From Paludibacteraceae bacterium (lineage in GTDB: Bacteria > Bacteroidota > Bacteroidia > Bacteroidales > Paludibacteraceae): a DNA stretch of 64,000 nt. How positions within the stretch are numbered: the first letter of the stretch is position 1; each line of letters opens with the position of its first letter. The DNA is taken from positions 1 through 64,000 of the forward strand of contig JAFZPM010000030.1 in NCBI GenBank assembly GCA_017550335.1, written 5' to 3'. The translations under genes and the position numbers were made by a program. Positions 13,201 through 54,858 of the stretch are shown one piece after another. The notes beneath the pieces were generated by a model that did not search any database, was not told where the DNA came from, and was given only the letters and a program-made list of their open reading frames with translations.

Positions 13201-16200
13201 CAAGTGTATGTGATTCCGCTCTCCTTCTCCAGCACCGCCGCGTCATAAGCGGTCAGTGACTTATCGAAGACACCAGCGGCGGTCGTGTCGTTCACCAGGT
13301 AGGTGACTTTGAACGTACCATTCAACACCGGCGTAGGGGAAACCGTCACATTGATCTTACCCGAACCCGAGCAAGAGCCTTGGGTCACCTTCACCTCGTA
13401 CTCACCCGACTCGGTGACATTAAGAGTGGAAAGTGACGATCCGTCCGTCCATTCGTACGTATCGTAGCTGCTGGAAGCATCGAGCACCAATGGGAGGTCG
13501 CCCTCGCAGATGGTGGTGTCCGCACCCAAGTCCACCTTCAGTTCGTCCGCCACGGTGATGGTAGCGGAAGCCTTCGATTCACAACCATCCGGAGTGGTAA
13601 CCACCACGGAGTATTTGCCAGGCTGGTCGGTGACCAATTCGTTCTTAGAGGAACCATCGTTCCAGAGATATGTATACGTCAGGTCGGTACCAGCGGTCAA
13701 CGTGCCCGCCTGGCCCGAACAGATGGTAAGGTCAGAGAGTTTCACCACAGCGGTATCAGCCACCGTGTAGGTGAGGTGGAAGGTGTCGCTGACACAGCCA
13801 TCCTCCGAAGAGAGCACATATGCCTTATCGAAATCACCTACCGCATCCGTCGACACTTCAGGGAAGACGATAGGCACGCCACCGCGGTCACCAATCCAAT
13901 TATAGTTAACACCACTCGGTCTATTGTCGATGGTGGTTATCATCTCCGTGTATTTAGCGTTATCGGCCGGCAAGGTGCCGACACAGAGCGTGCCGAGAGG
14001 GAAGTCCTGACCCACCGGTCGTTCATTCACCGTCAAAGAGATCTTCTTGCTCTCCAGGAAGCAAGTAGGGTCAGACGGGCTGCTCACCTTCACATGGTAT
14101 TCACCAGCCTTCTTCACATAGATCTCTCCCTTATAGGAAGCCTTGCCCAGGGAAACATTATCCAAGAAGAACTCGTACATGAACCGTGAACCATCCTTGC
14201 CATCGTCACCATATCCCACGAGGAGAACCGAATCACCTTCGCATATCCTGTCAACACCGTCGTTAAATTCGATGCTTGCCCTGATGAGCTCGCATTCCTT
14301 GCCACACTCGATCGTGTTGAGCACCTTGAGGGTATCCTGTCCGAAGACAGTGGCGATACCCATATTGTTGATATACTTGCCACACGTGATCACCTTCGCA
14401 TCGAAAGTCTTGACGATGGAGTCGCCCGGTGCGAGCGCCGTAGACACGGAGGTAGCCTCAACCGGCCACTTGATCTCATGGTTGGAGGCGTTATATGTTC
14501 CACCACCCGAGATGGAGGAGATATCACCCAACTCAGACGGAAGCTTATCCGACAGTTCGATGTTGAATCCGTAATCCAAGTCGGTCGTGAAGGTGGTCAG
14601 CTGGGTATTGGAGTTTCCGTTGCTGTTCACATACATACCCCAATAACCAGGGCCCTTGGACGTCAATCCGGACCAGTCCTTCAAGACGTTCGTCCATTCG
14701 TCCTCGAAATCATTCACATACATGTAGAGGTGATCCCCCTCCAGCACGAACTTGAAAGTCGGAGATTCGCTATTGCCAGGGAACTGCGTGGCATCCGCCC
14801 AGGTGAGACCCTCGGACGCGATCATGTTGCCATCGTTGTAGAGGCGGTAGCCGAAGTTGTTCTTACCATCCTGGTTGACCAGCAACTGCATGCACACACC
14901 CTTGAATCCACTCTGGCCAGGCGTTCCGCTCACATAACGGAACACGATAAACAGGGACTGCGTGGACGAAGGGGAACCGCCGATGGTAGCGTATACGGAG
15001 CCATCCGTTCCGTAAGCGTATTCAGGAGCGAAGAAGTACGGAGTGCCGTTGCCGTTGGTGCTCAGCTTCAGACCGCTGGTACCCACAGCCGGGAGCGTTC
15101 CGTTCCCCAACTTGATCCACCCGTCGGTGGACTTGCAGGAGGACTCCAGATGCGTACCCTCCGTATTCACGAACTTCAACTGATAAGAGACCGTCTCGTC
15201 CTCTTCCACCCTCTTCCTGTCCGAAGTCTTGAAGAGAGAGGTCTGCGGCTCGATTTGTGGAGGCAGTTCCGTGCAAGTGGTCATCAGTTCCACTTGGCTG
15301 GAGTCAGGGGAATCCGTGTCGGACCAGATCCAAGCGACGTTCTCGTAATAAGCGTCATCCGCCGTAGGGCAACCCAAGTCACGGGCTTTGCAACGATAAA
15401 CCAGTTTATCGGCCTCGCCCACCAACATCTCAGGCACGGTCCAGTAGACAACACCCGTATATCCCTTGCCCTTCGGATCGGAGCAAGGCGTATATTTAGC
15501 TTTTATCTTCTCGCCAGCATCATTCTTCAATGCGGTACTGTCAATCCAGCCCACCCATTCCAACTCATACGGGATGGTATCAACCACCGTCACATTGTAA
15601 GCCTCTTTCCCTGGGAGAGGACCCGTACCTTGAATACGGCGCCATGTATAACCGTCGAACTCCTCCACGAGCACACGCTCGTAGTTCTTCACCTTTGTCG
15701 GGCTACATACGTGGCGGGCGTAATTGGTTATCTCATAGCCCGGTTTCTCATAATTAGCCCAACATGGGGAAATCAGCGTGAAGGTCGTACCCTGTCCGTC
15801 CAATGGTTCTCCGCCCACCTTCTCGTCGTACGACCAGTCGTCCGTCACACGGTTACTCAAGTCCTGGTTCGGGTTAGAAGCCAAACGGGCGCGGATAAAT
15901 CCAGGGCCCCACACACCCTTATGCAACAGGTATTGGGAATCCAACTTGTCATACACATGCGTGGAAGGAGCCATCAGGACATCCGCGAAACGGATCATCA
16001 GACGCTGGTTCCACTTACCGAACTGATCCTCACCCTGAGGAATCTTCTGGTAAGAGAACGTGATCGGACCCGTCGACGGATTATATCCATACTTGTCCAA
16101 GTCGTTCTGGTTGTCCACGACAAATGTCCAACCGGTCGTGTTCCTCGTCGCGTCATACAGACCGATGGCGGCCGCATCATACATGAAGTAGGAAACACGA

Positions 16201-18548
16201 TAGTTACCCATATTGATATACGACTCATAAGCGTCGTTCCAGAATCGGTACAAAGAATAGAACTGGTAGGTAGGGCTCGGGGAGTGCGTACCGTACGAAA
16301 TCCGCACATTGTCACGTCCACCATTCAGCCAAGAGCTCTCGCCCTCCGATTTGTTCTCGAACTCCACGGTGAAGGTAACCACGTCATTAGGGTTCAAAGC
16401 GTTCCTATTGGCGGTCTTCTTGATGGAGAGGGAACGATTGGCCAAGATATCCACGCAGTTGCGCTCCATCGTATAAGTGGCGTGGTTAGGGAACTCGTTG
16501 CTCTCCCACTCGTCACAGTTCGAAGCCGTCAGCTTGCTCGTCAGGCAGATTCTCGGATTCAGTGTATCCGCAACATTCACGGTGAACGCCACAGAGTCCA
16601 TCGTAGCCGCCAAGCCACCCGTCTTAAAGCCCTTGATGGAGCCGATGTTCCATGAGATCGAGTGGTCTGACGAATTATAGACACCGCCCTTGGTCGCACT
16701 GACGAACGTGTAGTTCGGGTCCAGCTTCGTGGTGATCTTCACCCCTTCCGCATCCAACGTACCGTAGTTACGGTATTGGACGCCGTACGTCACATTATCG
16801 CCCTGATAAGCGTATGTCTTATCCACCGACATATAGACCTTGGCGTTCGCGATCGGCTTCATGTCCTCAGGCGCCGCCAAGTTACCGGAGCACACCAGCA
16901 TACCCAATGTCCTGAACCAGCCATGGAAATATTTCGGGGTACTACCTATGTAACGCTCCTCAGGGTCCAACTTAGCCGCCGTGTTGTTACCGTCCCACAT
17001 GATCTCGCATTGGCGGTAGATATCAGCCACCAGCTCCAAGTCCTCGGAGATGACAGCCGCAGGCGAGCCGGCGCCCACAGAATAGTTCGTATGATAAGCC
17101 GACGTGATATCACCCGTCGGGGTCCACTGCTGCGGTATCTGGGAGACACCGAACCAGGAAGGCTGACCTGGGTCAGGTGAGGCACCCATCTTAGAGCAGA
17201 GGAGGGTTCCCGCCTTCGACGGGTTCTTCAGCAATTCCGCATGACGGACACCCATGTCGCGTTCGGAGGTGTTCGTCCCATCGATCACCTGGTGGGTTTT
17301 CGGGTCCCAATCATAGTCCGCATCCCCATGCCACAGATAGTCGATCAGATGTCTCCAAGCGTAACGGAAGTCCTCGCCATCCACGTAAACACCAAAGGTC
17401 GGCTGACCATCCGTTTGCATATCTACCCGACCGATCGAGGCATAAAGTCCCTGGTCGTAAGCCTGTTTATTCAGCCAGTTACCCGAGGCCGCCGCCCGTT
17501 TGAACTGATGGATCTCCCATTCCGCCCGGTCCTTGTTCTTCTCATCCGTACCGTCGCCGTTCTTCAACCAGCGCCAGAATTCCTCGAAGTAGGAAGGAGC
17601 GTCATAGTCTATATAGTTTCCACCATAGATTCCATACAGGTTCGGTCCGACGTTGTTCGGACCATTCACACCCGGATAGCGGGCATTCGCCTCGTCGGTG
17701 AAACGCCAGCGGGTAAGCTCACCCCAGGAATTACCCCTCTTCTCATAACCATCTATACCGATGACACCGCACAACATACCGGTCAGCGCGCCGCTTCCCT
17801 TGTCCCATTGTCCCAAGGTATCCACCAATGCGCCGATCACGCGTTGCGCCTCATATTTCAAGGAGATCGGATTGCCCTCGCTATCCTTGATCACCTGTCC
17901 GTCCTGCATCAACCACTCTCCCCACTGCTTGTAGGCGACCAGCATCGCCATGGCGATATCCACGTCACCATCCGTGGCGGAATGGCTATCCGAACCATAT
18001 GCCGCATCGAAGGTCTTATCCTTCCACGCAGCCAGATAAGGGCCCGCGAAATCATTAGCGTTCGTACCCCTTGTCCGTCCATCCCGGAAACGCTTCACGC
18101 CCGAGAAACGGATGTCATGCACCCACATGTAGAGACCGTTGAAGGTCTTTTGGTCGGCGAAGATAGCGGCCGCCAGCATAGCGTAGCCATCACCCTCCGA
18201 CACGAAGGTTCCGTAATTGCCCGCGACATCATCCCTATTGAATGATATATACTTGACACCACAATAGGTACCCTCATAGCGGCAACGGTGCATCATGATC
18301 TCATAAGCCTCGCGACCCGCCTTCTCCATATCGGCATGGGTCACACCCTCGGCATTGTACTTCGCCAAGGACTTTCCACCACCCTTGTATTCCAAGAACT
18401 GAGGATATGGATAATTCGGGTTTCCAGAGTTGATGTTTATGTCTATAAACACAGACGGGTCATAGGTGAGCGCCTGAGCGAACACACCCGATACACACCC
18501 GAACAATACGGCTAAAGCTGTAATAACTGGTCTAACTATATGTTTCAT
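10299..18548 (-). CDS. Giant secreted GH8 protein with Ig-like repeats and T9SS C-terminal domain
   Basis: 2749 residues. Signal peptide 1-24 (ending GVFAQ). A family 8 glycoside hydrolase domain (about 30-560) shows SEGDGYAM with Glu118 as probable proton donor and the GH8 signature ATDGDVDIAMAML with Asp193 and Asp195. DUF11-type repeats follow (about 570-690, again near 710 and 1120; e.g. YAYQGDNVTYGVQYRNYG). A long array of Ig/PKD-like modules follows, many opening with a Cys-rich 'VCSG' strand. The end is a CHU_C/gliding-motility domain (about 2655-2749; YFSPSDDGVNDSWDL, TIYDRSGKVV). GH8 enzymes cut beta-1,4 glucans, xylans or chitosan. The C-terminal domain predicts export by T9SS and surface attachment. 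It is monocistronic. An adhesin-like role is an alternative if the GH8 domain is inactive. Confidence 0.88.
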   Translation of the reverse strand: MKHIVRPVITALAVLFGCVSGVFAQALTYDPSVFIDININSGNPNYPYPQFLEYKGGGKSLAKYNAEGVTHADMEKAGREAYEIMMHRCRYEGTYCGVKYISFNRDDVAGNYGTFVSEGDGYAMLAAAIFADQKTFNGLYMWVHDIRFSGVKRFRDGRTRGTNANDFAGPYLAAWKDKTFDAAYGSDSHSATDGDVDIAMAMLVAYKQWGEWLMQDGQVIKDSEGNPISLKYEAQRVIGALVDTLGQWDKGSGALTGMLCGVIGIDGYEKRGNSWGELTRWRFTDEANARYPGVNGPNNVGPNLYGIYGGNYIDYDAPSYFEEFWRWLKNGDGTDEKNKDRAEWEIHQFKRAAASGNWLNKQAYDQGLYASIGRVDMQTDGQPTFGVYVDGEDFRYAWRHLIDYLWHGDADYDWDPKTHQVIDGTNTSERDMGVRHAELLKNPSKAGTLLCSKMGASPDPGQPSWFGVSQIPQQWTPTGDITSAYHTNYSVGAGSPAAVISEDLELVADIYRQCEIMWDGNNTAAKLDPEERYIGSTPKYFHGWFRTLGMLVCSGNLAAPEDMKPIANAKVYMSVDKTYAYQGDNVTYGVQYRNYGTLDAEGVKITTKLDPNYTFVSATKGGVYNSSDHSISWNIGSIKGFKTGGLAATMDSVAFTVNVADTLNPRICLTSKLTASNCDEWESNEFPNHATYTMERNCVDILANRSLSIKKTANRNALNPNDVVTFTVEFENKSEGESSWLNGGRDNVRISYGTHSPSPTYQFYSLYRFWNDAYESYINMGNYRVSYFMYDAAAIGLYDATRNTTGWTFVVDNQNDLDKYGYNPSTGPITFSYQKIPQGEDQFGKWNQRLMIRFADVLMAPSTHVYDKLDSQYLLHKGVWGPGFIRARLASNPNQDLSNRVTDDWSYDEKVGGEPLDGQGTTFTLISPCWANYEKPGYEITNYARHVCSPTKVKNYERVLVEEFDGYTWRRIQGTGPLPGKEAYNVTVVDTIPYELEWVGWIDSTALKNDAGEKIKAKYTPCSDPKGKGYTGVVYWTVPEMLVGEADKLVYRCKARDLGCPTADDAYYENVAWIWSDTDSPDSSQVELMTTCTELPPQIEPQTSLFKTSDRKRVEEDETVSYQLKFVNTEGTHLESSCKSTDGWIKLGNGTLPAVGTSGLKLSTNGNGTPYFFAPEYAYGTDGSVYATIGGSPSSTQSLFIVFRYVSGTPGQSGFKGVCMQLLVNQDGKNNFGYRLYNDGNMIASEGLTWADATQFPGNSESPTFKFVLEGDHLYMYVNDFEDEWTNVLKDWSGLTSKGPGYWGMYVNSNGNSNTQLTTFTTDLDYGFNIELSDKLPSELGDISSISGGGTYNASNHEIKWPVEATSVSTALAPGDSIVKTFDAKVITCGKYINNMGIATVFGQDTLKVLNTIECGKECELIRASIEFNDGVDRICEGDSVLLVGYGDDGKDGSRFMYEFFLDNVSLGKASYKGEIYVKKAGEYHVKVSSPSDPTCFLESKKISLTVNERPVGQDFPLGTLCVGTLPADNAKYTEMITTIDNRPSGVNYNWIGDRGGVPIVFPEVSTDAVGDFDKAYVLSSEDGCVSDTFHLTYTVADTAVVKLSDLTICSGQAGTLTAGTDLTYTYLWNDGSSKNELVTDQPGKYSVVVTTPDGCESKASATITVADELKVDLGADTTICEGDLPLVLDASSSYDTYEWTDGSSLSTLNVTESGEYEVKVTQGSCSGSGKINVTVSPTPVLNGTFKVTYLVNDTTAAGVFDKSLTAYDAAVLEKESGITYTWYDEDKKELSSEPVPAVPAGGGNGSYTYYVKATNAEGCESALQEVTVLVSGSPMPTVADVAYCLNATDVKALEATPGSNGSATNWTLVWYDAEGGKLNGAPVPDVSVAGETKYYVSQVDEQGTEGGKAVAVVKVYDLPQLVAEPQSIKLCDASYELNTAFKESNGLTVAYSFYDSNKDLISGSKPMADKSGIYYAKASYEPAAGLQCESADFASVEVLIDQITDIQLVASPSICPYGETELVASAKSEGSAVDIFWRGDASSDEPTLKVKDETGEYGKVYSFDLVMNAGLCEYDTTVTVTVGRGVLTGSLTANGVETKRYRTCGDEDIKLGATHEGEDFKWTTYDGDLLASDISTTVRPDQTKTYILSFVNECETSDTMVVEIYPLSLSTDFAKLDTAVCENTSASGHLVLNGYDEKMEGSYIKWFKNGEELTEYAGLATLEIPNVKAQDGGEYTFEVSNGICLAKSLDGVTSATLTVKPFVSFSEPTEVVAANGGSASLELKDLVPSDAVVAWKGSENEGEGNPYLIDQVFSDELFDVTVSAEGYCDRETQLRLVVDAKVMVSVSTSTPKICLNEAASLTADTTGTGHLLHPEKYSVVWYSCDESGNCGSLQIKGMELTHYPETNTSYFAMVTYGDQVAYSDTVPVSVISKVNYTTSSDVVSCSGEEVTLSVEVEDAPEAVVTWEDGTKSNTLTVRPTEATKYAFTITQDGLCPQKDSIPVTVRENPSIEMEDDIVVCSGNGISFAPTVSGDDIDSYHWISPTGDTIAHTQKLTIRMEPESGKYTFVVSSKFCGDAVATQNVTVVPTPEILIDSLSINSRKIVPVGRSGQYEFKLDNNDWSMQDVYENLTYDYPHTAWVRDELGCEGVTVFVVMAPPVVIPDYFSPSDDGVNDSWDLSNIMDAYPNTKVTIYDRSGKVVAVLEGDTSDWDGTYNGHPLPSTDYWYLINVPELRKQFTGHFTLIRSK

Positions 18549-23206: not shown

Positions 23207-24301
23207 TCAATTTTTCTTATGCAGCAAATCCATAAAGCTCTCCGCAAAAAGCGCGTCGTCCCCCCGCATGAAGTCGATGGAGAGCGGGAGGTAGTAGATC
23301 TTAGACTTCAGCGCATTCGGGAAATCAGGGTGGTCCATCAGGCGCACCGCATCCTTCTCCGTCGTGATGATATACCGTTTCTGGGACTCCAACGAATCGA
23401 ACTGCTTCTCTATCTTCTTCAGGTCGGACGCGGAGAACGCATGGTGGTCGCCGAACGAGCAGGCGGATACCTCGGAGACGTTGCTCTTCAGATACTCCAC
23501 GAAAGGCGTCGGGGAGGCGATGCCCGTAAGAGCCAGGACACCACCATCGGAAAGATCGGCGAGCGTCACGTTTTTCTTCGATTTGCCGGACTTTGAGGAG
23601 GGGAACAACGGTTGGAGTTCACCATAAGCCAATCGCGTGAAACAGAGCGTCTGATACGGGTATGGATTGAGGTGCTTGCGGAAAAGCCGCATATCCATCG
23701 GAGTGATGGAGTCAGGGCACTTGGTCACCACAATGATATCCGCACGTTTCATGGAACGTTTCGGCTCCCGCATCATGCCGACGGGGAGAAGATGGTCCTC
23801 CGCAATGTTGCGGTTATAATCAACCAGCAGGATAGAGACCTTCGGATGCACGTAGCGATGCTGGAACGCATCATCCAAGAGAATCAGTTCCGGAGATTCC
23901 CCCTCCATCTTCATGAGCGATTTGATGCCCCGCCTACGATCCGCGTCGACGGCGACCGTCACATCCGGGAACTTCCGTTTTATCTGGAAAGGCTCATCGC
24001 CTATCGTATCGGGCGTATCCTTCTCCTTGGCGATCCTGAACCCCGAGGTGCTACGTTTATATCCACGACTGAGGACACCCAAGCGGTACTGCTCTTTCAG
24101 CCGACGGATAAGGTACTCCGTGAAAGGAGTCTTCCCCGTGCCGCCCACCGTGATATTTCCAACGGAGACAATCGGCAGATCGAACTTCTCGGAAGTGAGG
24201 ATACCACGGTCGAAAAGCCAATTACGCACACACACGCATAGCCCGTAGACCATCGAGAATGGCCACAATAGGATTTTCAGTATGAGTGGTTTGTTTTTCA
24301 T
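23207..24301 (-). CDS. lpxK: Tetraacyldisaccharide 4'-kinase
   Basis: 364 residues. LpxK phosphorylates the 4' position of the lipid A disaccharide precursor at the inner membrane. An N-terminal hydrophobic segment (about 8-28) anchors it. The P-loop GNITVGGTGKTPF (about 48-60) and the following LSRGYKR and GDEPFQI are typical. The DADRRRGI and LLDDAFQHRYV segments hold catalytic acidic residues. It sits 53 nt after sppA within the minus-strand envelope run, consistent with co-expression with phospholipid synthesis. Confidence 0.95.
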   Translation of the reverse strand: MKNKPLILKILLWPFSMVYGLCVCVRNWLFDRGILTSEKFDLPIVSVGNITVGGTGKTPFTEYLIRRLKEQYRLGVLSRGYKRSTSGFRIAKEKDTPDTIGDEPFQIKRKFPDVTVAVDADRRRGIKSLMKMEGESPELILLDDAFQHRYVHPKVSILLVDYNRNIAEDHLLPVGMMREPKRSMKRADIIVVTKCPDSITPMDMRLFRKHLNPYPYQTLCFTRLAYGELQPLFPSSKSGKSKKNVTLADLSDGGVLALTGIASPTPFVEYLKSNVSEVSACSFGDHHAFSASDLKKIEKQFDSLESQKRYIITTEKDAVRLMDHPDFPNALKSKIYYLPLSIDFMRGDDALFAESFMDLLHKKN

Positions 24302-24354: not shown

Positions 24355-26091
24355 CTATCTCAACTCAATGGTATATGGCATAATCGCTTGGAACCTTTCC
24401 AAGTTCCGTATTTTTTCAAAAATATATCTTTCTTTCGAAAAAACCTCGTTTTCTTTCAATTTTTCATAGCCAATAGAAGGTATTTCTTGCAATTTCTGGA
24501 AAAAATCTTTCTTTTCAGGGTATTCGACAACGGAATAGTCGGTCAACTTAGCCATTGCGGCAGCCGAATCGATGGCGCAGTGTAACCCGCCAGCATAGTC
24601 AACCAAACCAATTTTCAAGGCATCGACACCAGACCATACACGACCTTCGGCGTACTCTTTCACCTGTTCCACCTCCATGCCGCGGCCCTCGGCGCAACGT
24701 TGCAGGAACGTATCATAGAAATCATCGACGGAACGTTGCATGGCAGTCCGCTCGGCGGTAGTCAACGGACGGAAGATATTCTCCATGACATCCGCGTTCT
24801 TGTTGGTTTTAACAGTCTCATAGTGCACACCGATCTTGTTCGACAACTCCTGTGCGTTAGGCAAGAGGGCGATCACGCCGATGGAACCTGTGATAGTATT
24901 CTTATCCGAGAATATGCGCGATGCGTTGGAGGAGATGTAATAGCCTCCCGAAGCCGCATAATCACCCATGCTGGCGATGATAGGCTTGCTCTTCTTCGCC
25001 TCCATTATGGCATGGCAAATCTGGTCCGAACCATAAGCGCTGCCTCCAGGCGAATTAACGCGCAACACGATCGCCTTCACCGTGCTATCCTTCTTCAGTT
25101 TCTGCAACTGCTTCACCGTTTCGGAAGAACTGATACCATCGGTGTCACCATTGTCGATCTCTCCGCTTAGATACAAGACAGCCACCTTATCCGAAGTCAT
25201 TTCTTCCATCTTATTCGTCACAAGATCCGCCACATAGTCTTTGACCGAAACGGTAGGCAAATCCTCGGTCGAGTCAACGCCCATCTTTGTGCGGATGAGC
25301 GACTCGAACTGATCGTTGAAGAGGAGACCGTCGACGAATCCCTGCTCCAACACGAAAGAGGAGGAACGCAAAGGAATCATGCTATCCGCCAAGGCTAACA
25401 ACCTATCCTTCTCGATCGACCGGCTGATGGAAATAGAGTCCACGATACTGTTCCAAATAGAGGACAGCAATTCGTCCATTTGCTCACGGTTCTCGCTGCT
25501 CATCGAATCGTTGACATACGATTCAGCGTATGATTTGTAGGAGCCCGCCTTCACGACCTGCATCTCCACACCGATCTTCGTCAAGAAATCCTTGCAAAAG
25601 AGGGAAGAGGAGGATATGCCCGTGAAATCGAGTGATCCGCGAGGGTTCATGTAAAGGGAATCCGCCACGGACGCCACGTAGTAGGCGCCTTGCGTATACA
25701 AGCCAGAGTAGGCGTAAATGAATTTGCCACTGGATTTGAAGTCGACGAGTGCGTCGCGGATCTCCTCCAAGGTGGCGTACCCGGTTTGCAACACATTAGT
25801 CTTTAGGTATATGCCCTTGATTCGGTCGTCTTTCTTCGCCTCCTGGATCGCATAGCGGATATCACTCAGACCCGTTTGACCCGCTTGGGAAGGAAACAGG
25901 TTAACGTAGACATCATCATCATCCCTGTCTACGATCTCGCCATCAAGGGAAACAAGCAAAACAGAGGAGTCTTTAATTTCAGAGGAAGAGTCGGAGCACA
26001 CAGCTATCACGACAACAACCATGAACAGAAGGAAAAATGCCAGTATAACGCCCAGGCATGAGGCAAAGATAGTTTTTATGAATTTCTTCAT
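24355..26091 (-). CDS. sppA: Signal peptide peptidase SppA, 67K type
   Basis: 578 residues, double-length SppA. An N-terminal membrane segment (about 8-32) precedes two homologous S49 domains. By alignment with E. coli SppA, the general-base Lys is Lys186 in KAGSYKSYAE and the nucleophile is Ser381 in GDYAASGGYYIS; VNSPGGSAYGSDQI forms the oxyanion region. It cuts remnant signal peptides in the membrane. Its ATG overlaps the stop of pssA (ATGA), showing tight coupling to phospholipid genes. Confidence 0.93.
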   Translation of the reverse strand: MKKFIKTIFASCLGVILAFFLLFMVVVVIAVCSDSSSEIKDSSVLLVSLDGEIVDRDDDDVYVNLFPSQAGQTGLSDIRYAIQEAKKDDRIKGIYLKTNVLQTGYATLEEIRDALVDFKSSGKFIYAYSGLYTQGAYYVASVADSLYMNPRGSLDFTGISSSSLFCKDFLTKIGVEMQVVKAGSYKSYAESYVNDSMSSENREQMDELLSSIWNSIVDSISISRSIEKDRLLALADSMIPLRSSSFVLEQGFVDGLLFNDQFESLIRTKMGVDSTEDLPTVSVKDYVADLVTNKMEEMTSDKVAVLYLSGEIDNGDTDGISSSETVKQLQKLKKDSTVKAIVLRVNSPGGSAYGSDQICHAIMEAKKSKPIIASMGDYAASGGYYISSNASRIFSDKNTITGSIGVIALLPNAQELSNKIGVHYETVKTNKNADVMENIFRPLTTAERTAMQRSVDDFYDTFLQRCAEGRGMEVEQVKEYAEGRVWSGVDALKIGLVDYAGGLHCAIDSAAAMAKLTDYSVVEYPEKKDFFQKLQEIPSIGYEKLKENEVFSKERYIFEKIRNLERFQAIMPYTIELR

Positions 26092-26807
26092 TTTTTAACG
26101 AAAGCCGTATAGATAGACATCAATATAAACAGAATGATAATCAAAGGGATTGCAGCCATTTGGAAAATAGCGGCCAACACGACAGACGAAATAATCAAGA
26201 TGAAACGGATCTTGTTGTCCGCCCACTTCAGGTTCTTGAACTTCAAAGAGAACATCGGAAGCTCGCATACCAACAAGTAAGAGAACAAGAAGACCAAACA
26301 AATAATCACAACAGGAGAGGAGACGATGTCGTAAATGACCTCCATGTTGAACCAACCCGGAACGGGAGCGATCGGATCCGAAAGGGCCGCAAGCGAAGAC
26401 ATGAACATAGCATTCGCCGGCGTAGGGAGCCCAATGAACGAGGAGGTCTGACGCTCGTCGACATTGAACTTAGCCAACCTCAGGCCCGAGAAAATAGCCA
26501 ATAAGAAAGCCAGATATGGCAGATAAGAGGCATCCCCCATGATACTACGGAGCAGGTTATAAATGATAGCAGCCGGAGCCAAGCCGAAACTGACGGCATC
26601 GGACAGAGAGTCCAACTCCTTTCCAATATCGGATTTCACATTCAGAAGGCGAGCGACCATGCCATCGAAGAAATCAAACACAGCAGCCAACAGGATATAA
26701 ATCGCCGACCAAATAAAATTACCTTGGAACGCCATCACCACCGCAATGCACCCACAGGCCATATTCATGCATGTGATGGTATTGGGAATATGCTTCTTTA
26801 TACTCAT
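26088..26807 (-). CDS. pssA: CDP-diacylglycerol-serine O-phosphatidyltransferase
   Basis: 239 residues with several hydrophobic segments. The CDP-alcohol phosphotransferase motif is DGMVARLLN...GKELDSLSD, holding the DGxxAR...GxxxDxxxD residues. It makes phosphatidylserine from CDP-diacylglycerol and serine. It overlaps psd by 4 nt upstream and sppA by 4 nt downstream. With psd and cdsA it forms the complete route from phosphatidic acid to phosphatidylethanolamine. Confidence 0.95.
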   Translation of the reverse strand: MSIKKHIPNTITCMNMACGCIAVVMAFQGNFIWSAIYILLAAVFDFFDGMVARLLNVKSDIGKELDSLSDAVSFGLAPAAIIYNLLRSIMGDASYLPYLAFLLAIFSGLRLAKFNVDERQTSSFIGLPTPANAMFMSSLAALSDPIAPVPGWFNMEVIYDIVSSPVVIICLVFLFSYLLVCELPMFSLKFKNLKWADNKIRFILIISSVVLAAIFQMAAIPLIIILFILMSIYTAFVKK

Positions 26808-27475
26808 TTCGTATTCAATTTCGCGATAACCGTTTGGTTACCAACAACTTTTTGCTTTAAGTTCACTAAAATCTCAGCGTCCTTCGGCAGGAATATGTCC
26901 ACACGCGAGCCGAATTTGATGAAACCCATCTGCTGATTGATATGGCACTCATCACCCACCTTCGCATAAGTGACGATCCTACGCGCCAAAGCGCCCGCCA
27001 CCTGACGGAAAAGGACCTTCGTCTCATTCACCGTCTCCACGACAACCGTGGAGCGCTCGTTCTCCGTGCTCGACTTAGGAAGATTAGCCTTCCAGAACAG
27101 GCCATCGTTATGAGTGTAGTACAAAATCTTACCATTCACAGGATACCAATTCGCATGGACATTGAAGACGCTCATGAAGATGGATACTTGGATGCGTTCA
27201 TCCTTCAGATATTCACCCTCCACAGTAGGCTCGATAACCACTACGGTTCCGTCTGCCGGCGCCATTACTAACCCTGTGCTGTCCCCCTCGTAAACCCTGT
27301 TCGGGTTACGGAAAAAATTCAAGAAAAAAAGAAACACCAAAAGGCTAAATATGCAGAACCCTACCACAAACGTCGGATAGGAAGCGTAGCAACACCAGCC
27401 AACCACGGCATCCACCACTAAAATGACGGCCAGCAACTTTGTTAATATTCCCTTTCCCTCTTTATGTATTCTCAT
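26804..27475 (-). CDS. psd: Phosphatidylserine decarboxylase proenzyme
   Basis: 223 residues, short archaeal/Bacteroidetes-type Psd. The self-cleavage motif is the GS of IKFGSRVDIF near residue 190, which yields the pyruvoyl group. Two N-terminal hydrophobic segments (about 12-50) anchor it. It decarboxylates phosphatidylserine to phosphatidylethanolamine. It overlaps pssA by 4 nt and has its own -7 box upstream. Confidence 0.94.
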   Translation of the reverse strand: MRIHKEGKGILTKLLAVILVVDAVVGWCCYASYPTFVVGFCIFSLLVFLFFLNFFRNPNRVYEGDSTGLVMAPADGTVVVIEPTVEGEYLKDERIQVSIFMSVFNVHANWYPVNGKILYYTHNDGLFWKANLPKSSTENERSTVVVETVNETKVLFRQVAGALARRIVTYAKVGDECHINQQMGFIKFGSRVDIFLPKDAEILVNLKQKVVGNQTVIAKLNTK

Positions 27476-27545: not shown

Positions 27546-28361
27546 CTACAGAATTAGTGAAAAAATCACAAAAAGAACAGGAGCAGCCAACAATGCGCTA
27601 TCGAATCGGTCCAAAAGACCACCATGTCCCGGAATCAGATTGCCCGAATCCTTCACCTTCAGACTACGCTTGAACATGGACTCCACCAAATCGCCGAACA
27701 CGCCAAAGACGAAGACGCACACTGAAAGGGTAATCCACAGCCCGACATGCAGCGTAGGCACACTTTCCGTGTAATGGAATATCAGACCAGAAATGATGGC
27801 GAATAGTAATCCTCCGCAGAAGCCCTCCCATGTCTTCTTAGGCGATATACGCTCAAACATCTTATGCTTACCACACATGCGTCCCACCAAATACGCTCCC
27901 GTATCCGAAGCCCAAATGATCACGAAAAAGGCAAGCAGCAACACCTTCGAATGCTCGGACGCCCCCTCCACGATGCAGAACAAGGTAAACGGAAGGGCCA
28001 CATAGAAATGGCCAAGCACGGAGACCCCCAAATTCAGGATAGGATTACTCTTCTTCCTGAACAACTCGAACACAAAGATCGTGGCGACACACAAAATGTA
28101 GACAGAATACAAAGCGGGGGACTTATGGAGGAAGGTGACACAGAAAGCGATCACAAAAAGCAATGCGCCTCCTATGACAGACATCCATTTATCCACACAC
28201 ACGCCTTCACACTTGTCCGTCAGTGCATAAAATTCATGTAACGACAGAACGGTTATCAAGAGGAAAACCGCCCCAAAAACATACGATGACATCCATATCG
28301 ATGCAACCATGATCGCAACAAAAGCGATTCCTGAGATGAGTCTTAACACTAAATTATTCAC
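27546..28361 (-). CDS. cdsA: Phosphatidate cytidylyltransferase
   Basis: 271 residues, polytopic membrane protein with about eight hydrophobic segments. The C-terminal CTP-transferase signature is DLVESMFKRSLKVKDSG followed by LIPGHGGLLDRFDS. PKKTWEGFCGG is also family-typical. It makes CDP-diacylglycerol, the substrate for PssA. It lies 26 nt after the charged-helix gene. Confidence 0.95.
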   Translation of the reverse strand: MNNLVLRLISGIAFVAIMVASIWMSSYVFGAVFLLITVLSLHEFYALTDKCEGVCVDKWMSVIGGALLFVIAFCVTFLHKSPALYSVYILCVATIFVFELFRKKSNPILNLGVSVLGHFYVALPFTLFCIVEGASEHSKVLLLAFFVIIWASDTGAYLVGRMCGKHKMFERISPKKTWEGFCGGLLFAIISGLIFHYTESVPTLHVGLWITLSVCVFVFGVFGDLVESMFKRSLKVKDSGNLIPGHGGLLDRFDSALLAAPVLFVIFSLIL

Positions 28362-28387: not shown

Positions 28388-31300
28388 TCATTCACCATCG
28401 TTTTCCGATGTACTATCCTCTCCCTCCTCGGAAGATTTCCTCTTCCGTCGTGACCTTTTTTTCTTGGCAGGCTGCTCCTCCTCACTCACGGCATCCTGAT
28501 CCCCAGAAGCATCCGAGGCTTCCACCTTAGGTGTTTCGTTCTTTTCCGGAGCGGCGGACTCACTTGCCTGAGCGGCCGAATCTTCCGTCTCCTCAGCCTC
28601 CTTCGATTTGCGCCTCCTGCTTCGGCGGGACTCCTTCGGAGCCTCCACATTCTCCTCCGGCTGGACCTCAGGTTCTGTAGGGCTAGGAGCTGTCGCCTCC
28701 TGCTTCGGAGGAGTAGGCGACTCCGTCTTCTTCGGGGTTCCCGCATTCAAGTTGTCCAAAATAGATGGCCGAGACGATGATATCGGCACGGAAGGTGTGG
28801 ACAAAGACGATGGCTTCTTAACAGACTTGCCAGTCTTTCCATCCTTGCGTTGCGCCTCCAACATCTTGATGAACTTGCCTATGTCATTGAGCGACACAGG
28901 TTCTGACGGCGCGACAGGAAGCACCTCAGCCTTCGGCGCATCCGTCTCTTCCTCCGCCAACAGAGTCGAATCCGTCGCGGTGGAATCCGCCATGGCGTCA
29001 CCGAACAACATATCGTCCAACATCTGATGCAGGCTATCCTTCTCGGAGCCCTCCATCGCCAGCTCGTTCGTAAGCATCGCCAGACTGTCTTGGATACGTT
29101 GCAGGCTATCCTGTTCCAAAATCTTCGTACGGACAGCGTTCAAAGAATCCGCCAAATGCTTCTCCTGCATCTGCAGCGAATCCGGCTTAATCAGCAAGGA
29201 ATCATACTGCGAAGCATCCAATTCCTCGATGACCCTTCTACGGTTAGACGTGTAGAACTTGATGTTACCCAAGGAACCACCACCCTCGTCGTTGATCTTA
29301 GTAGGCAATATCTTCGACAATATCCTATCTTGTCTACGGTTCTTGTATTTAATCTTAATCTCACCCGTGGCCAAGTACTCAAGGTTCAGATCGGTGATCA
29401 CCGAATCCAGATACTCCACAACCGGATAGTTAGGCAAGAAGCCCGCAATCGAATCCGCCACCTTGTTGAAGTCCGTATGACGGTACTTGGACCTTCCGAC
29501 CAACTGCATCACATACTTGGCGACGATACGGGTCGAGTCGACCATGTCATAGAATTTCTTCTTATGGAAATACCTATGGTCGAAATAATGCAGGAAGAAG
29601 TCATACTCGTACCTGAACTCGAACTTATCCCTGACGTAGTACACATCATTCAGATAACGGCAGTTAGGGATCTTGATCTTGCGAAGGATGACATCACCCT
29701 TGCGGTTCTTGTTCTTCTCAAGTTCCTTGATATCCCGGACGTTCTGCAACTCCTCCTCCAATTCGGCGATCTGCTGCTGCAACAGCACGGAGTCGATCAT
29801 GGAAGTGACGAGGGTCGCCTCCTCTTCCTCATCCACAGCAAAGGAATCAATATTCGCCATGTAAGTGGAATCCAACTCACCGCTGGCGAAGGCGAAGGAG
29901 TTCTCGTCATCCAAGGCCACCTCTTCCTCCTTCTGCTTCGGTTCGACGCGTTCACGCACATCAGGCGGCAGATCCGAGTTATCACGTTTGCCCGTGGCGA
30001 TGTCGAAGTCTCCGTCCGCCAACAGCATCGAATCCCTCATATTCTGCTCCTCGAGTTTACGTTTCTTCTCCTGGATACGCTTCAAGGCCTTCTGTTGCTT
30101 CTTCGTCAACGCCACCGCCTCGTCTTGCGCATCCTCCTTGGCGAAACGCTCCAAGTCAGCATTCTCTTGTTCTGCCAACTTGGCCGAGTCACGCGCTATC
30201 TCGTTACGCATCTTCTCGCGCATCTTCTCCTCCTTGCGTCTCGCCTTGTCCTCCGCGTTCAGTTTCTTTTCCTTGGCGGCGACGATCTTCTTGGCGAGTT
30301 TCATCGTTTCTTTCTCGATCTTCTCGCGTTGGGCCTGGAGTTCCTTCTTCTTTTTCTCCTCCAGTTTATTCTCCCGTTCAAGGCGTTCCTGTTCCTCTTT
30401 CAGCTCCTGCTGTCTCTGCTGGTACTCCTTCAGTTTCTCCTCGTCGTTTCTCAACTGGTTCTTTTCGGACTCACGTTCACGCGCCTCCTTCTCCCGTGCG
30501 ATCTGGAGTTCCATCATCTCTTTCTTCTTCTCGCGCAAAGCTGCGGCACGTTCTTTCTCCGCCTGTTTCCGCTCCAACTCCTTCTGGCGTTGAGCCTGAC
30601 GCAGAGCGACCTGTTTCCGCTTCTCTTCCTGGCGCTTCTGCTTCATACGTTCAGCCAACGCCTTCTCCTTATTCTTGGTCAGCTCCTCACGCGCCTTCTC
30701 ACGTTCACGCATCTGCTGTATGAACTCGCGATGGCGTTGTTGGGCCTCACGTTCCCTCCGTTTCCGCTCGATCTCCTGCTGCTTAGCCTTTTCCTTGGCC
30801 GCGCGTTTACGCTCACGTTGCTGTCGTTGCTTCTCTTGTCTCTGTTCCTTCTGCTCACGCTGTTTCTGCATGCGCTCATCCTGCAGTTGTTTCTGTTTCT
30901 CCACCCACTGTTCATGCTCGGCGCGCTTCTGCATGGAAGCCTCCTGTCTTTTACGGACAGCCTCCTCACGTTTTGCGGCTTGTTCCTCACGGCGGCGGCG
31001 CATTTCTTCCTTTCTCGTCTCCTGTGCGATTCTTTCCCTCTCGCGCTCCTCTTGTTGCTTTTTAGCGCGCATTTGACGTTCCTCGGAAACGCGCTGCATC
31101 TCCGCCTCATGCTCCGCCTCGCGGCGCTTCCGTTCAGCCTCCGCCTGCTTGCGTTGCTCGTCCTGTTGCTGCTTATGCTGCGCCCACATCTCACGCTCGT
31201 TCTGCTTCTGCTGAGCCTCACGTTTGCGCTGTTCTTCACGGGTCTCACGCTGCTTGGCGATGATGGCCTCGTATTCCTTTTGCCTGCGCTCGTTCTCCTG

Positions 31301-32098
31301 TTTTTCCCGTTGCCGGGCCGCTTCGATCTCCGCCTTCTTCTTGTTCCACAGCTCCGTGTAGCGCTGCTTCATCTCGTTCTCCTGGCGGATACGCATTTCA
31401 CGCGCTTGGCGCTCCAACTCGACGGCCTGTAGGTAATCCGCCAAGCGGGCCTCCCTTTCCTCAGCCTCTTTGTCCTTATTTTGGGATAACTCGCTCTTTT
31501 TCTGTTGCCACTGCTGCATCTGCTGGTTTCTTCTTTCCGCATCCTTCTGTTTCTGGAGTTCCCGGCGAAGTTTTTCCCTCTCCGAAGCGGCCACATATTC
31601 CTGTTGACGTTTCTCGGCGGCAGCCTCGTCACGCTTGCGGGCGGCATCCAGTTCCTTCTGTTTCTCCGCCCAACGCTCCTTGTCGTGCTGTTTCATCTCC
31701 GCCTCACGACGAAGGCGCAACTCCCTCGCCTGCCTCTCTTGCTCGACTATCTGCTCATACTCCTTGAGTTTCTTCGCCTCGTTGGCCTTCTCCTCCGCCT
31801 TGCGGGCATCCACCTGTGCCTTGACTTTCTTCCACTCCTCCTTTTGGCGTTGCTTCTCTTCCCGCTCCGCCTGACGCTTCGCGGCTTGCTCCTCCTTCAC
31901 TCTCTCATTAGCCGCTTTTGCCTCTTCGAGACGTTTCTCCCTTTCATGCAACTCCTGTTGACGCCTCGCAGCTTGCTCCTCCTTCACCCTTTCGGCTCTG
32001 GCGCGTTGTTCCTCGCGAATGCGTTCCGAGTCTGTTTGAGCGTACATACTGACGGCTAAAACAGTCGAAGTTAACAATATGGCTAATAATCTCTTCAA
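28388..32098 (-). CDS. Giant charged-helix protein with 54-residue Trp/Tyr repeats
   Basis: 1236 residues. Signal peptide (about 1-20, ending SMYAQ) predicts export. Residues ~24-660 are almost pure Glu/Lys/Arg/Gln with Ala, the composition of a long single alpha-helix or coiled coil. Within it Trp recurs exactly every 54 residues (89, 143, 197, 251, 305) and Tyr sits 25 residues after each of the first four (114, 168, 222, 276). A folded-looking segment with many aromatics (about 800-930; CRYLNDVYYVRDKFEFRYEYDFF) follows. The tail is Ser/Pro/Lys-rich and ends in basic RSRRKRK and acidic stretches. I recognise no family. It has its own promoter and lies 26 nt before cdsA, so it may lead the envelope transcript. 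A periplasm-spanning spacer or scaffold is a guess. Confidence 0.8.
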   Translation of the reverse strand: MKRLLAILLTSTVLAVSMYAQTDSERIREEQRARAERVKEEQAARRQQELHEREKRLEEAKAANERVKEEQAAKRQAEREEKQRQKEEWKKVKAQVDARKAEEKANEAKKLKEYEQIVEQERQARELRLRREAEMKQHDKERWAEKQKELDAARKRDEAAAEKRQQEYVAASEREKLRRELQKQKDAERRNQQMQQWQQKKSELSQNKDKEAEEREARLADYLQAVELERQAREMRIRQENEMKQRYTELWNKKKAEIEAARQREKQENERRQKEYEAIIAKQRETREEQRKREAQQKQNEREMWAQHKQQQDEQRKQAEAERKRREAEHEAEMQRVSEERQMRAKKQQEERERERIAQETRKEEMRRRREEQAAKREEAVRKRQEASMQKRAEHEQWVEKQKQLQDERMQKQREQKEQRQEKQRQQRERKRAAKEKAKQQEIERKRREREAQQRHREFIQQMREREKAREELTKNKEKALAERMKQKRQEEKRKQVALRQAQRQKELERKQAEKERAAALREKKKEMMELQIAREKEARERESEKNQLRNDEEKLKEYQQRQQELKEEQERLERENKLEEKKKKELQAQREKIEKETMKLAKKIVAAKEKKLNAEDKARRKEEKMREKMRNEIARDSAKLAEQENADLERFAKEDAQDEAVALTKKQQKALKRIQEKKRKLEEQNMRDSMLLADGDFDIATGKRDNSDLPPDVRERVEPKQKEEEVALDDENSFAFASGELDSTYMANIDSFAVDEEEEATLVTSMIDSVLLQQQIAELEEELQNVRDIKELEKNKNRKGDVILRKIKIPNCRYLNDVYYVRDKFEFRYEYDFFLHYFDHRYFHKKKFYDMVDSTRIVAKYVMQLVGRSKYRHTDFNKVADSIAGFLPNYPVVEYLDSVITDLNLEYLATGEIKIKYKNRRQDRILSKILPTKINDEGGGSLGNIKFYTSNRRRVIEELDASQYDSLLIKPDSLQMQEKHLADSLNAVRTKILEQDSLQRIQDSLAMLTNELAMEGSEKDSLHQMLDDMLFGDAMADSTATDSTLLAEEETDAPKAEVLPVAPSEPVSLNDIGKFIKMLEAQRKDGKTGKSVKKPSSLSTPSVPISSSRPSILDNLNAGTPKKTESPTPPKQEATAPSPTEPEVQPEENVEAPKESRRSRRRKSKEAEETEDSAAQASESAAPEKNETPKVEASDASGDQDAVSEEEQPAKKKRSRRKRKSSEEGEDSTSENDGE
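31025..31834 (-). repeat. Five 162-bp coding repeats (54-residue units)
   Basis: Units begin at Trp89, 143, 197, 251 and 305 of the charged-helix protein. Each opens W-(x3-4 basic/polar)-K, has Tyr (His in unit 5) at position 26, and shares phrases such as ERQARE(L/M)R and ENEMKQ. Nucleotide copies have diverged, so the period is an amino-acid feature kept by selection or an old duplication. Confidence 0.85.
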
Positions 32099-45374: not shown

Positions 45375-46147
45375 AGCTTGTCCTCAACGACAAATACGCT
45401 CACTTACGAACCTTCATCGAGAGTCTGCCCGACATCTTCGACGAGGAGGGCGAATCGATCTTCCTGGCAAGGAACGAAATCAAATTATACGAGGTGGAGG
45501 GCCTCACCCTGAACGTCAAATCATACAAGGTGCCGATTCTCATCAACCGCATCGCCTACACCTTTTTCAGACCATCCAAGGCCTCCCGCGCCTACGAGCA
45601 TGCGCTCACCCTCCTTTCGAAGGGGTTCCAGACGCCGGATCCCGTCGCCTACATCGAGACGAAAAAGAACGGTCTGCTCCACAGAAGCTTCTTCATCAGC
45701 CTGCATACCCCCATGGACGGTCACATGAGGCTCTTCAACGACGAGGACAAGGATAATGTGGGGAAGGAGGATCTGATCAAGGCTTTCGCGGAATTCACCG
45801 CCCGACTTCACGAAGCGGACATCCTGCATTGCGATTATTCTCCGGGAAACATATTGCGCGAAAAAGTCGATGAAATGGGGAAAATATCTTATCATTTCTC
45901 CCTCGTGGACATCAACCGGATGCAGTTCCGCCCAGTCAGCGTCGAGATGGGCTGCAAGAACTTCAGTAGGATGCGCGGCAACGACGAGTTCTTCCGCCTA
46001 TGCGCCACCTACTATGCGAAGGAACGCGGAGCGGACGTGGAGCAATGCGTCGAGGCCTTCCTACGGCACAAATACGAGGACAGAGAGAAACGCACGCGCA
46101 AAGAGAAATTCAAGAAGTTCACCCGAAAGATCTTCAACCGCAAATAA
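45371..46147 (+). CDS. LPS kinase-like (Kdo/WaaP family) protein
   Basis: 258 residues from ATG 45371, overlapping the previous stop; the frame is open 18 codons upstream but those lie inside the glycosyltransferase. It has protein-kinase-like motifs: HCDYSPGNIL (catalytic Asp and Asn) and LVDINRM (metal-binding Asp). WaaP/KdkA relatives phosphorylate core heptose or Kdo. The substrate here is unknown but the coupling to a core-type glycosyltransferase fits. It lies 14 nt before sbcD. Confidence 0.85.
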   Translation: MKLVLNDKYAHLRTFIESLPDIFDEEGESIFLARNEIKLYEVEGLTLNVKSYKVPILINRIAYTFFRPSKASRAYEHALTLLSKGFQTPDPVAYIETKKNGLLHRSFFISLHTPMDGHMRLFNDEDKDNVGKEDLIKAFAEFTARLHEADILHCDYSPGNILREKVDEMGKISYHFSLVDINRMQFRPVSVEMGCKNFSRMRGNDEFFRLCATYYAKERGADVEQCVEAFLRHKYEDREKRTRKEKFKKFTRKIFNRK

Positions 46148-46161
46148 GAGGCGCAACCCGC

Positions 46162-47346
46162 ATGAAGTTCATCCACACATCGGACTGGCATATCGGGCAG
46201 GATTTCTACCGATATGACCGTGAGGAGGAGCACCGCAGCTTCTTCCAACAATTGTGTGCCATCGTGGAGAGGGAGCAACCCGACGCACTGCTGGTCAGCG
46301 GAGACATCTACCACACCGCCGTCCCTTCCGCCGCGGCGCAGAAACTCTACACCGACAGCATGGTGGCCATCCACAAAGCGTGCCCATCCATGTCCATCAT
46401 CGTCACCGCCGGCAACCATGACAGCTACTCCCGACTGGAGTCGGCCGACGAGCTCTGGCAACTGGCGAACGTGAAGGTGATCGGTCATGCAGAGAAAGAT
46501 GAAAACAACGAATCCATCGAAAAAAAACATATCATTCCCATCCAAGGGAAAGGCGGAGCAACCATCGCCTACGTCATCGCCATCCCCCATATCAGGGAGA
46601 GCCAAATGGGACTGTTCAACACGACGCAGGAAATCGTCCGAGAAAAGAACAAACAGGATGTGCCTGTCATCATGATGGGGCACCTCACCCTCTGCGGGGC
46701 GGACACCAGAGGGCACGACGAGCAATCGGTGGGTGGCATGGATTACGTGGAGATCAACACGCTAGGGGATTACTACGATTACTTCGCCTTGGGACATATC
46801 CACCACCCGCAATTCATCAAAGGGGATGAGAAGGCGAGGTACAGCGGTAGCCCGATCCAAGTCAACTTCGACGAGATGTACCCGCACTCGGTCTCCGTGG
46901 TGGAGATCAACCGACACGGCGAGAAGGCTTCCGTCAAGGAGGTCACCATCCAGAACGACCATCGGTTTTTAACGATTCCATCGGAACCTTTGCCCTTCGA
47001 GGAGGCGTTCAAGGCCTTCGCCGAAACCCCTGTCGACCCCTCTTCCTACGTCTGCCTCAACGTGGAGGTGGAGGAGTATGTGCCTTCGGACGCGGAGACG
47101 AGGATAGAGCAACTGCTCCAACTGAAAAAGTGCCGGTTCTGCAAGATAAAGACAACAAGGAAGGCAAGGAAACACCCGTCAGCCGCCCACATCATCGACT
47201 CCTACGAAATCACAAGCATGGAGCCCGCCGAACTCGCCAACACCTACTACCAGGAGGTCTACGGCAGGGAGTTGGACGAAGAGATGACGACGATGATCCG
47301 GGAGATCACGGAGGGACTCCGTAGAAAGGAGCGGGAGGAGGCATGA
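46162..47346 (+). CDS. sbcD: Exonuclease subunit SbcD
   Basis: 394 residues from ATG 46162. A Mre11-like phosphoesterase with HTSDWHIGQ, LLVSGDIYHT, VTAGNHDSYSR, MMGHLTL and ALGHIHH metal-binding motifs in order. With SbcC it cuts hairpins and processes DNA ends. The stop overlaps sbcC by 4 nt. The frame opens earlier inside the kinase gene, but that part is not SbcD-like. Confidence 0.95.
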   Translation: MKFIHTSDWHIGQDFYRYDREEEHRSFFQQLCAIVEREQPDALLVSGDIYHTAVPSAAAQKLYTDSMVAIHKACPSMSIIVTAGNHDSYSRLESADELWQLANVKVIGHAEKDENNESIEKKHIIPIQGKGGATIAYVIAIPHIRESQMGLFNTTQEIVREKNKQDVPVIMMGHLTLCGADTRGHDEQSVGGMDYVEINTLGDYYDYFALGHIHHPQFIKGDEKARYSGSPIQVNFDEMYPHSVSVVEINRHGEKASVKEVTIQNDHRFLTIPSEPLPFEEAFKAFAETPVDPSSYVCLNVEVEEYVPSDAETRIEQLLQLKKCRFCKIKTTRKARKHPSAAHIIDSYEITSMEPAELANTYYQEVYGRELDEEMTTMIREITEGLRRKEREEA

Positions 47347-54420: not shown

Positions 54421-54858
54421 TAAATTTGCAAGGCATCATGCGCCCTTCAAAAAGGGGAACATGGTTGTGACATAGTAAAATTCAATTAATAGCGTCGCTA
54501 TTTATTCTGGAAACGCTTCAAAGCTTGGCCGCATAGAAGATTGAGAACAGAATGATAAACAGCAACGCCCGCGGTTTGCGTGGGTGATGCATTATCTGTT
54601 CTCATGGGTCTGGCCAAGCACCCGAAGCGTAGGTAAGCATTTGCCCACGCATCGTGTGTTTAATCAGACCCTTTTCGTTTGCACGACTTAATAGACGTAC
54701 GCTCTAACCCCCATCAGGGGAAAGAGCACAATAAGCAATTGAATCTGGTATTATCTTCTCCGTAAAATCTTTACGGCAGTGTGGGGATGGTGTGTCTTCA
54801 CGTCAATGCCAGTGGTATGGATGGAATGCTCTTCTTCCTGATGCAAAAGAGCATTTTT
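54421..54858 (+). promoter_or_regulatory. -7 box and structured leader of the ISP restriction enzyme
   Basis: TAAATTTG (421-428) without a clear -33. The ~425-nt leader has no gene and many helices: AATAGCG/CGCTATT (488-502); a large hairpin 514-629 (CGCTTC, GCTTGGCC, GAGAACAGA arms); GCTCT..CCCC/GGGG..AGAGC (701-727); CCGTAAA/TTTACGG (760-776). Loop TGCGTGGG (577-584) can pair with CCCACGCA (644-651) as a pseudoknot, and GGGTCTG (606-612) with CAGACCC (665-671). A terminator-shaped hairpin ATGCTCTT/AAGAGCAT (826-854) with TTTT ends directly at the ATG. Confidence 0.5.

Follow-up and report, generated by a model that had tools for sequence, protein, structure and literature searches.

Long helices that are highly charged, or that repeat at periods other than seven, are known from several systems. 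TolA-type rods join a charged helical spacer to a C-terminal domain in the periplasm, SF-assemblin is built on a 29-residue repeat, and 29/8 is an accessible coiled-coil periodicity. The 18/5 periodicity is also named among those of coiled coils (PMC4786415); in such non-heptad coils 18 or 29 residues make up a whole number of turns, with a near-straight stripe. Stable single alpha-helix (SAH, or ER/K) domains are long, free of Pro and Gly and charged at half or more of their residues, with opposite charges at i+3 and i+4. The giant amphipathic helix of perilipin 4 is very long, repetitive and weakly apolar, and its repeat length is conserved (PMC8064757). Here we describe a charged-helix gene on a 64,000-nucleotide stretch of Paludibacteraceae DNA (assembly GCA_017550335.1, contig JAFZPM010000030.1, positions 1 to 64,000; hereafter the window), whose product resembles each of these systems in part. 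It contains a genuine, old internal repeat of 54 residues, not a chance pattern, which is marked by a ladder of Trp and Tyr. This 54-residue period is the third harmonic, i.e. three five-turn units, of an 18-residue charge repeat, with the aromatics on every third unit. The comparison suggests that the family belongs with the known charged non-heptad helical rods, and we tentatively propose that it forms a hinged scaffold or tether in the cell envelope.

The protein also differs from each of these systems. Unlike SAH domains, it has an exact 18- and 54-residue repeat, a conserved aromatic ladder and an apolar stripe in its first half, and is very probably exported. Set beside non-heptad coiled coils, it is poor in apolar residues, with about half the content of SbcC. 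Perilipin 4, as described in PMC8064757, is a protein of eukaryotic lipid droplets that repeats every 33 residues and has small residues, with bulky aromatics few or absent. TolA-type rods share with it the charged helical spacer, the C-terminal domain and a (here predicted) periplasmic location, but apart from its signal peptide the protein shows no evident inner-membrane anchor. Scans of the whole protein with Pfam, NCBIfam and PHROGs gave no match (Pfam none at E 0.1), and we found no literature linking single alpha-helix, periplasm and coiled coil in Bacteroidetes. It thus represents an orphan family, known here from a single family of the Bacteroidales, Paludibacteraceae. The gene and its parts are as follows.

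28388..32098 (-), charged-helix gene, whole: frame of 1236 residues with a TTG start; the same frame is present in 15 congeneric species
32036..32098 (-), putative signal peptide, residues 1-21: hydrophobic N-terminus ending AQ-TD, with a presumed cleavage site
30014..32035 (-), charged helical region, residues 22-695: free of Pro and Gly; AlphaFold2 (AF2) helices 23-199, 211-536 and 548-694
31025..31834 (-), series of five 54-residue units counted from Trp89, residues 89-358, every unit 3 x 18: the first four also carry Tyr at +25
31466..31504 (-), predicted hinge 1, residues 199-211: AF2 break; 4 of 15 species have one extra residue after 205; antiparallel charge matching centres on 202.5
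30455..30493 (-), predicted hinge 2, residues 536-548: AF2 break; indels of relatives at 540-541 and after 549
29174..29836 (-), conserved C-terminal domain, residues 755-975: common to all five genera; AF2 confidence score (predicted local distance difference test, pLDDT) 59
28388..29173 (-), variable tail, residues 976-1236: D-S/T-hydrophobic motifs and basic clusters

Where the window has its TTG start (32098), the other 14 species of the genus show Leu in the alignment, which is consistent with a conserved TTG start. An antisense frame of 801 residues, rich in Leu, lies within the gene (window 29027-31432, plus strand) and most likely arises only from the codon pattern that encodes a Lys/Glu/Arg helix.

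The ladder was the starting point of the earlier note, and its positions are exact: Trp at 89, 143, 197, 251 and 305, a step of 54, and Tyr 25 residues after each of the first four (114, 168, 222 and 276). A sixth Trp at 398 and a further Tyr at 247 lie off the ladder. When six Trp were placed at random in the 679-residue coil, five never fell into arithmetic progression in 200,000 trials, and four did so in 9e-5 of them. The self-similarity of residues 61-345 was highest at offsets 54, 108 and 162 of the 179 tested, and these offsets still gave z 3.6, 5.5 and 5.5 with Trp and Tyr masked; the whole sequence therefore repeats, and not the aromatic pattern only. Identity at these offsets is 26-33%. 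In the window's genus (g1), each of the 15 species retains the five Trp, so that 75 of 75 cells of the Trp register hold Trp. Eleven species have steps of 54-54-54-54 and the other four (L031-L034) steps of 54-54-55-54; these same four have lost Tyr168 to Asn. Tyr occupies about 84% of the cells at Trp+25, with a fifth Tyr in seven species (L028-L034). Moreover, repeat positions 22-53 and 0-7 are invariant at 0.50, against 0.25 for the linker positions 8-21. A second copy of the repeat region was not found in the genome itself. The g6 homologue (L036) has a separate 54-residue repeat of unrelated sequence and with no Trp ladder (score 166, shuffled maximum 120), which would mean that the period itself, and not its residues, is under selection. 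In one g5 homologue (L093) a 55-residue piece of coil is duplicated almost unchanged, a recent change of length by whole-unit duplication; for this reason we rejected these near-identical copies as evidence for an ancient period.

The base unit is 18 residues and not 54, as the earlier note had it. Residues were classed as K/R, D/E, apolar, Ala or other, and every period from 5 to 59 was tested in 19 of the 36 carriers of the gene (4 of 15 in g1, 4 of 4 in g4, one in g6, 5 of 8 in g20 and five in g5). Residues 29-345 of the window protein gave z 12.7 at period 54 and 11.6 at 18, with no signal at 7 (z -1.5) or 11 (z -0.3), and residues 346-690 gave z 5.7 at period 29 and 0.3 at 7. The pattern of a canonical heptad coiled coil is thus seen in neither half, which agrees with the earlier note. 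Its argument that 54, not being a multiple of 7, speaks against a coiled coil fails all the same, because 54 is 3 x 18 and 18 = 7+11 is a recognised non-heptad periodicity. Period 18 ranked first or second in all ten homologues tested from g4, g6 and g20; among the five from g5, 29 came first in three, 18 in one and neither in one. The note had held that homologues without the period would refute it. The Trp ladder was found in no homologue outside g1, while the 18-residue period is present in most of them; the observation is therefore stronger than first noted, because it rests on a repeat common to most of the orphan family. An SMC control was unusable (no match over the cut-off in 31 genomes), and ten coil pieces from that search, together with the SbcC of the window, served as substitutes; the top period was 7 in six of these ten pieces from the same order. 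However, SbcC, a known coiled coil, shows a weaker 18-residue period of its own in residues 551-900 (z 3.8), which lowers any claim that 18 excludes coiled coils. This SbcC, with the 18-residue period in one arm, is paired with an SbcD-like phosphoesterase at window 46000-50672 (plus strand).

The periodicity is also observed as a helical stripe. In all 33 homologues examined, from five genera, the charge spectrum of the longest Pro/Gly-free run has its peak between 3.59 and 3.62 residues per turn (G340, G349/L097 and G361/L089 were omitted as truncated or odd). This peak beats all 200 of the homologue's own shuffles in 14 and ties in two, the window protein not being among those that do. L051 and L090 lie on the same contig, and L051 alone was used in the composition, spectral and period tests. 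The apolar stripe of residues 29-345 peaks at 3.59 residues per turn with a correlation of 0.48, which makes it as coherent as the SbcC stripes (0.43 and 0.55), although only about half as dense; the combination of an apolar stripe with an 18-residue period, as in 18/5 coiled coils, was found in 29-345 and not in 346-690. In each of the 25 sliding 54-residue windows from 35 to 736, the charge moment points to within about 80 degrees of the Trp direction. Around Trp, the bins from 0 to 60 degrees hold 42-67% Lys/Arg and few acidic residues, acidic, Ala and Gln residues occupy most of the range from 80 to 180 degrees, and acidic bins adjoin the aromatic stripe at 320-340 degrees. The claim that all aromatics fall on one face is too strong as worded: it would hold only at 3.60 residues per turn exactly, and 4 of 15 species have Asn in place of Tyr168. 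An undistorted helix has 3.63 residues per turn (PMC4786415), at which 54 residues make 14.88 turns and each repeat would shift the Trp round the helix by about 45 degrees. Trp align only at 3.60, as in a helix packed against a partner, and the exact 18/54 spacing thus argues weakly for packing and not for a free helix.

AF2, run as a monomer on residues 22-700 from 13 sequences, predicts the region to be helical, as the note had proposed, in three helices (23-199, 211-536 and 548-694; mean pLDDT 74.7, predicted template modelling score, pTM, 0.21). The sole indels in the coil of the 15-species g1 alignment, at 205/206, 540-541 and 549/550, lie at both predicted breaks. A single uninterrupted rod is therefore not upheld, the breaks being predicted at 199-211 and 536-548, where relatives carry their only indels; were the helix continuous, the 1-residue insertion of 4 of the 15 species would rotate the Trp that follow it by 100 degrees against those that precede it. 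The length of about 80 nm has to be revised as well, the region being free of Pro and Gly up to residue 695, or about 100 nm if it were one helix. A PDB sequence search with the coil returned nothing at E 0.001 and Foldseek with the coil model no match. Spectrin repeats, three-helix units of about 106 residues, do not describe it either, as Pfam gave no match at E 0.1 and AF2 breaks the helix only at the two hinges.

Taken together, these observations lead us to a tentative model, which we hold with less than even confidence, of an exported envelope scaffold or tether of Paludibacteraceae made of hinged helices packed side by side; we infer both the scaffold role and the pairing. The signal peptide would direct the protein to the periplasm, where the 18-residue, five-turn repeat would keep one face richer in Lys/Arg and, in g1, also in sparse apolar residues. 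In g1, Trp on every third unit and Tyr 25 residues on would run along that stripe and provide contact points about 8 nm apart where helices pack side by side. The form that we favour would be an antiparallel hairpin of residues 23-199 on about 206-382, with its turn at 199-211, which would shorten and stiffen the rod. The rod might then position the conserved C-terminal domain, followed by a flexible and probably O-glycosylated tail, in the envelope. With helices 1 and 2 set antiparallel, opposite charges match best at i+j = 405, both in the clade average, where this offset ranks first of 364 (z 3.8), and in 4 of 5 clades, tied in one of these four; this centres the turn at 202.5, within the first AF2 break. 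Only 1 of 400 shuffles of 18-residue blocks of the window protein reached the observed maximum. Because the charge matching peaks at the first break, we favour an arrangement in which helices pack on one another along the stripe of aromatics, perhaps as a hairpin. In the hairpin register, the two strands would contribute aromatics in turn, one every 11-15 residues.

Several results weigh against this model. At a pTM of 0.21 the arrangement of the helices is not predicted, and AF2 was given mostly the same gapped alignment, so that the match of breaks with indels is agreement and not proof. With symmetric arms of 140 residues, the hairpin centre ranks top in the window protein and in L030; in L027 it is third, and in L028 and L032 it falls outside the top five. 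With arms of 90 residues, it is third in the window protein. Charge matching gave no common hairpin centre in the other genera. Even interleaving of aromatics arises in 8 of 54 registers by arithmetic alone, and the Trp/Tyr ladder is limited to g1. The apolar content of 13.7% is low for a packed coiled coil, SbcC having 23-25%, and the separate autocorrelations of K/R and D/E are weak in 29-345 alone (0.15 and 0.05). A second hairpin, of helix 3 on helix 2 (177 + 147 = 324 residues against 326), was considered and rejected, having no charge support. Of the interpretation given in the earlier note, export, helix, the absence of heptads and part of the lipid linkage stand, whereas the single rod and the one-face aromatics, as stated there, do not. 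A more specific form of our model, a new envelope rod of two near-straight antiparallel helices with an 18-residue register, Trp/Tyr interleaving every 11-15 residues, two fixed hinges and a length set by repeat number, seems doubtful to us.

Among the other explanations, a monomeric SAH spacer, i.e. a charged helix that only distances the C-terminal domain, with Trp and Tyr as duplication relics or weak stabilisers, is unlikely but deserves serious attention. The coil is 53-67% charged and 11-16% apolar across the five genera, opposite charges are in excess and like charges in deficit at i+3 and i+4, and residues 346-690 show no apolar stripe near 3.6. However, the 55% charged and 13.7% apolar residues of 29-690 compare with about 9.6% apolar in the myosin SAHs of PMC5378345. 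Moreover, residues 29-345 have a coherent apolar stripe, the excess of acidic residues four before basic ones is modest (z 1.8), and Trp is kept in all five units of 15 species although the units are only 26-33% alike.

A parallel non-heptad (18/5 or 29/8) coiled-coil dimer or filament, in which Trp and Tyr would be core positions paired across strands, strikes us as rather improbable. It would account for the 18-residue period (7+11, an 18/5 repeat of the kind given in PMC4786415) and for the 29-residue period of residues 346-690, both accessible to coiled coils, and the 18-residue signal of SbcC agrees with it. Yet apolar residues are few, and staggers of 18, 36, 54 and 72 juxtapose like charges (z about -7 to -8, a value confounded by the within-helix pattern). 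A myosin-like assembly with a 54-residue parallel stagger was likewise disfavoured by charge, in a test with the same confounding. An interfacial amphipathic helix on the inner or outer membrane surface, with aromatics and Lys/Arg towards anionic lipid, would fit the Lys/Arg-rich sector around Trp and the acidic, Ala and Gln residues over most of 80-180 degrees, the adjoining cdsA-psd-pssA genes in g1, g4 and g6, which it would explain, and the precedent of Plin4 as a giant, weakly apolar, repetitive helix (PMC8064757), but it is very unlikely given the low apolar moment, the acidic bins at 320-340 degrees beside the aromatic stripe and the absence of lipid-gene linkage in g5 and g20.

The scaffold model also requires export. 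Signal-peptide-like leaders were recognised in all five genera, in support of the earlier note; the hydrophobic N-terminus ending AQ-TD is kept throughout g1, and the other genera have hydrophobic leaders too. D-S/T-[AILVMT], the O-glycosylation motif of exported Bacteroidota proteins according to PMC12871550, occurs 15 times in residues 691-1236, against 2.2 expected and a maximum of 7 in 2000 shuffles. This excess suggests that the protein very probably leaves the cytoplasm and that its tail is probably O-glycosylated. A C-terminal sorting domain of the type IX secretion system (T9SS) was found by neither Pfam nor NCBIfam, even though SprA is encoded in the genome and a CHU_C protein in the window. 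The latter is a T9SS cargo of 2749 residues with CHU_C, DUF11 and Ig-like domains (window 10299-18548, minus strand). Between coil and tail, the C-terminal domain is conserved in all homologues, with 61 of 242 alignment columns invariant over 15 sequences from five genera. A PDB sequence search with it gave nothing significant (best E 1.2) and Foldseek no match at E 0.001. An AF2 model from 14 sequences was aligned by VIA-align with winged helices over model residues 96-166 (protein 850-920; Z up to 8.3, rmsd 2.7, 67 aligned), but we do not build upon this, the mean pLDDT of the model being 59.

Called by this C-terminal domain, the gene is carried by 36 of the 358 genomes from the same family, always as one copy, and these carriers belong to 5 of 33 genera; in an order-wide sample, only 1 of 393 genomes has the gene, the window's own. 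In g1, 15 of 16 genomes carry it, the sixteenth being 89% complete and in 310 contigs. Among 13 relatives, those with a stated source come mostly from rumen or horse faeces, and carriers thus include gut bacteria of ruminants and horses. Since exported long helical proteins of Bacteroidota have been little studied and the envelope tethers of the phylum are poorly known, the family might give a handle on an envelope component of rumen bacteria. Furthermore, a repeat of 18 and not 7 residues, with aromatics fixed genus-wide, offers a clean natural test of the part that charge stripes and sparse aromatics play in making long helices pair and run straight. Downstream of the gene lie the following.

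27546..28361 (-), cdsA (CTP_transf_1), 26 bp downstream of the charged-helix gene
26804..27475 (-), psd, phosphatidylserine decarboxylase
26088..26807 (-), pssA-like CDP-alcohol phosphatidyltransferase
24355..26091 (-), sppA-like S49 peptidase
23207..24301 (-), lpxK

The gene stands upstream of cdsA-psd-pssA in 3 of 5 genera (g1, g4 and g6). Among the loci examined, cdsA follows it in 14 of 14 other g1 loci, 1 of 1 in g4 and 1 of 1 in g6, and in 0 of 1 in g5 and 0 of 2 in g20. The linkage is thus old but not obligatory, and the association with lipid synthesis genes reported in the earlier note holds in the first three genera and fails in the three loci examined of g5 and g20. SprA was present in 60 of 61 genomes and an MreB match over the cut-off in 61 of 61, so that neither separates carriers from non-carriers. 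In one g4 genome (G018) the best MreB-family match is far weaker than most (E 1.5e-19); it may be another actin-like protein, and this genome may lack MreB. Elsewhere in the window, a single-chain Type ISP restriction-modification enzyme of 1916 residues (54781-60531, plus strand) carries a C-terminal Peptidase_S24 (LexA/CI-like) domain at residues 1780-1909, a fusion that looks unusual.

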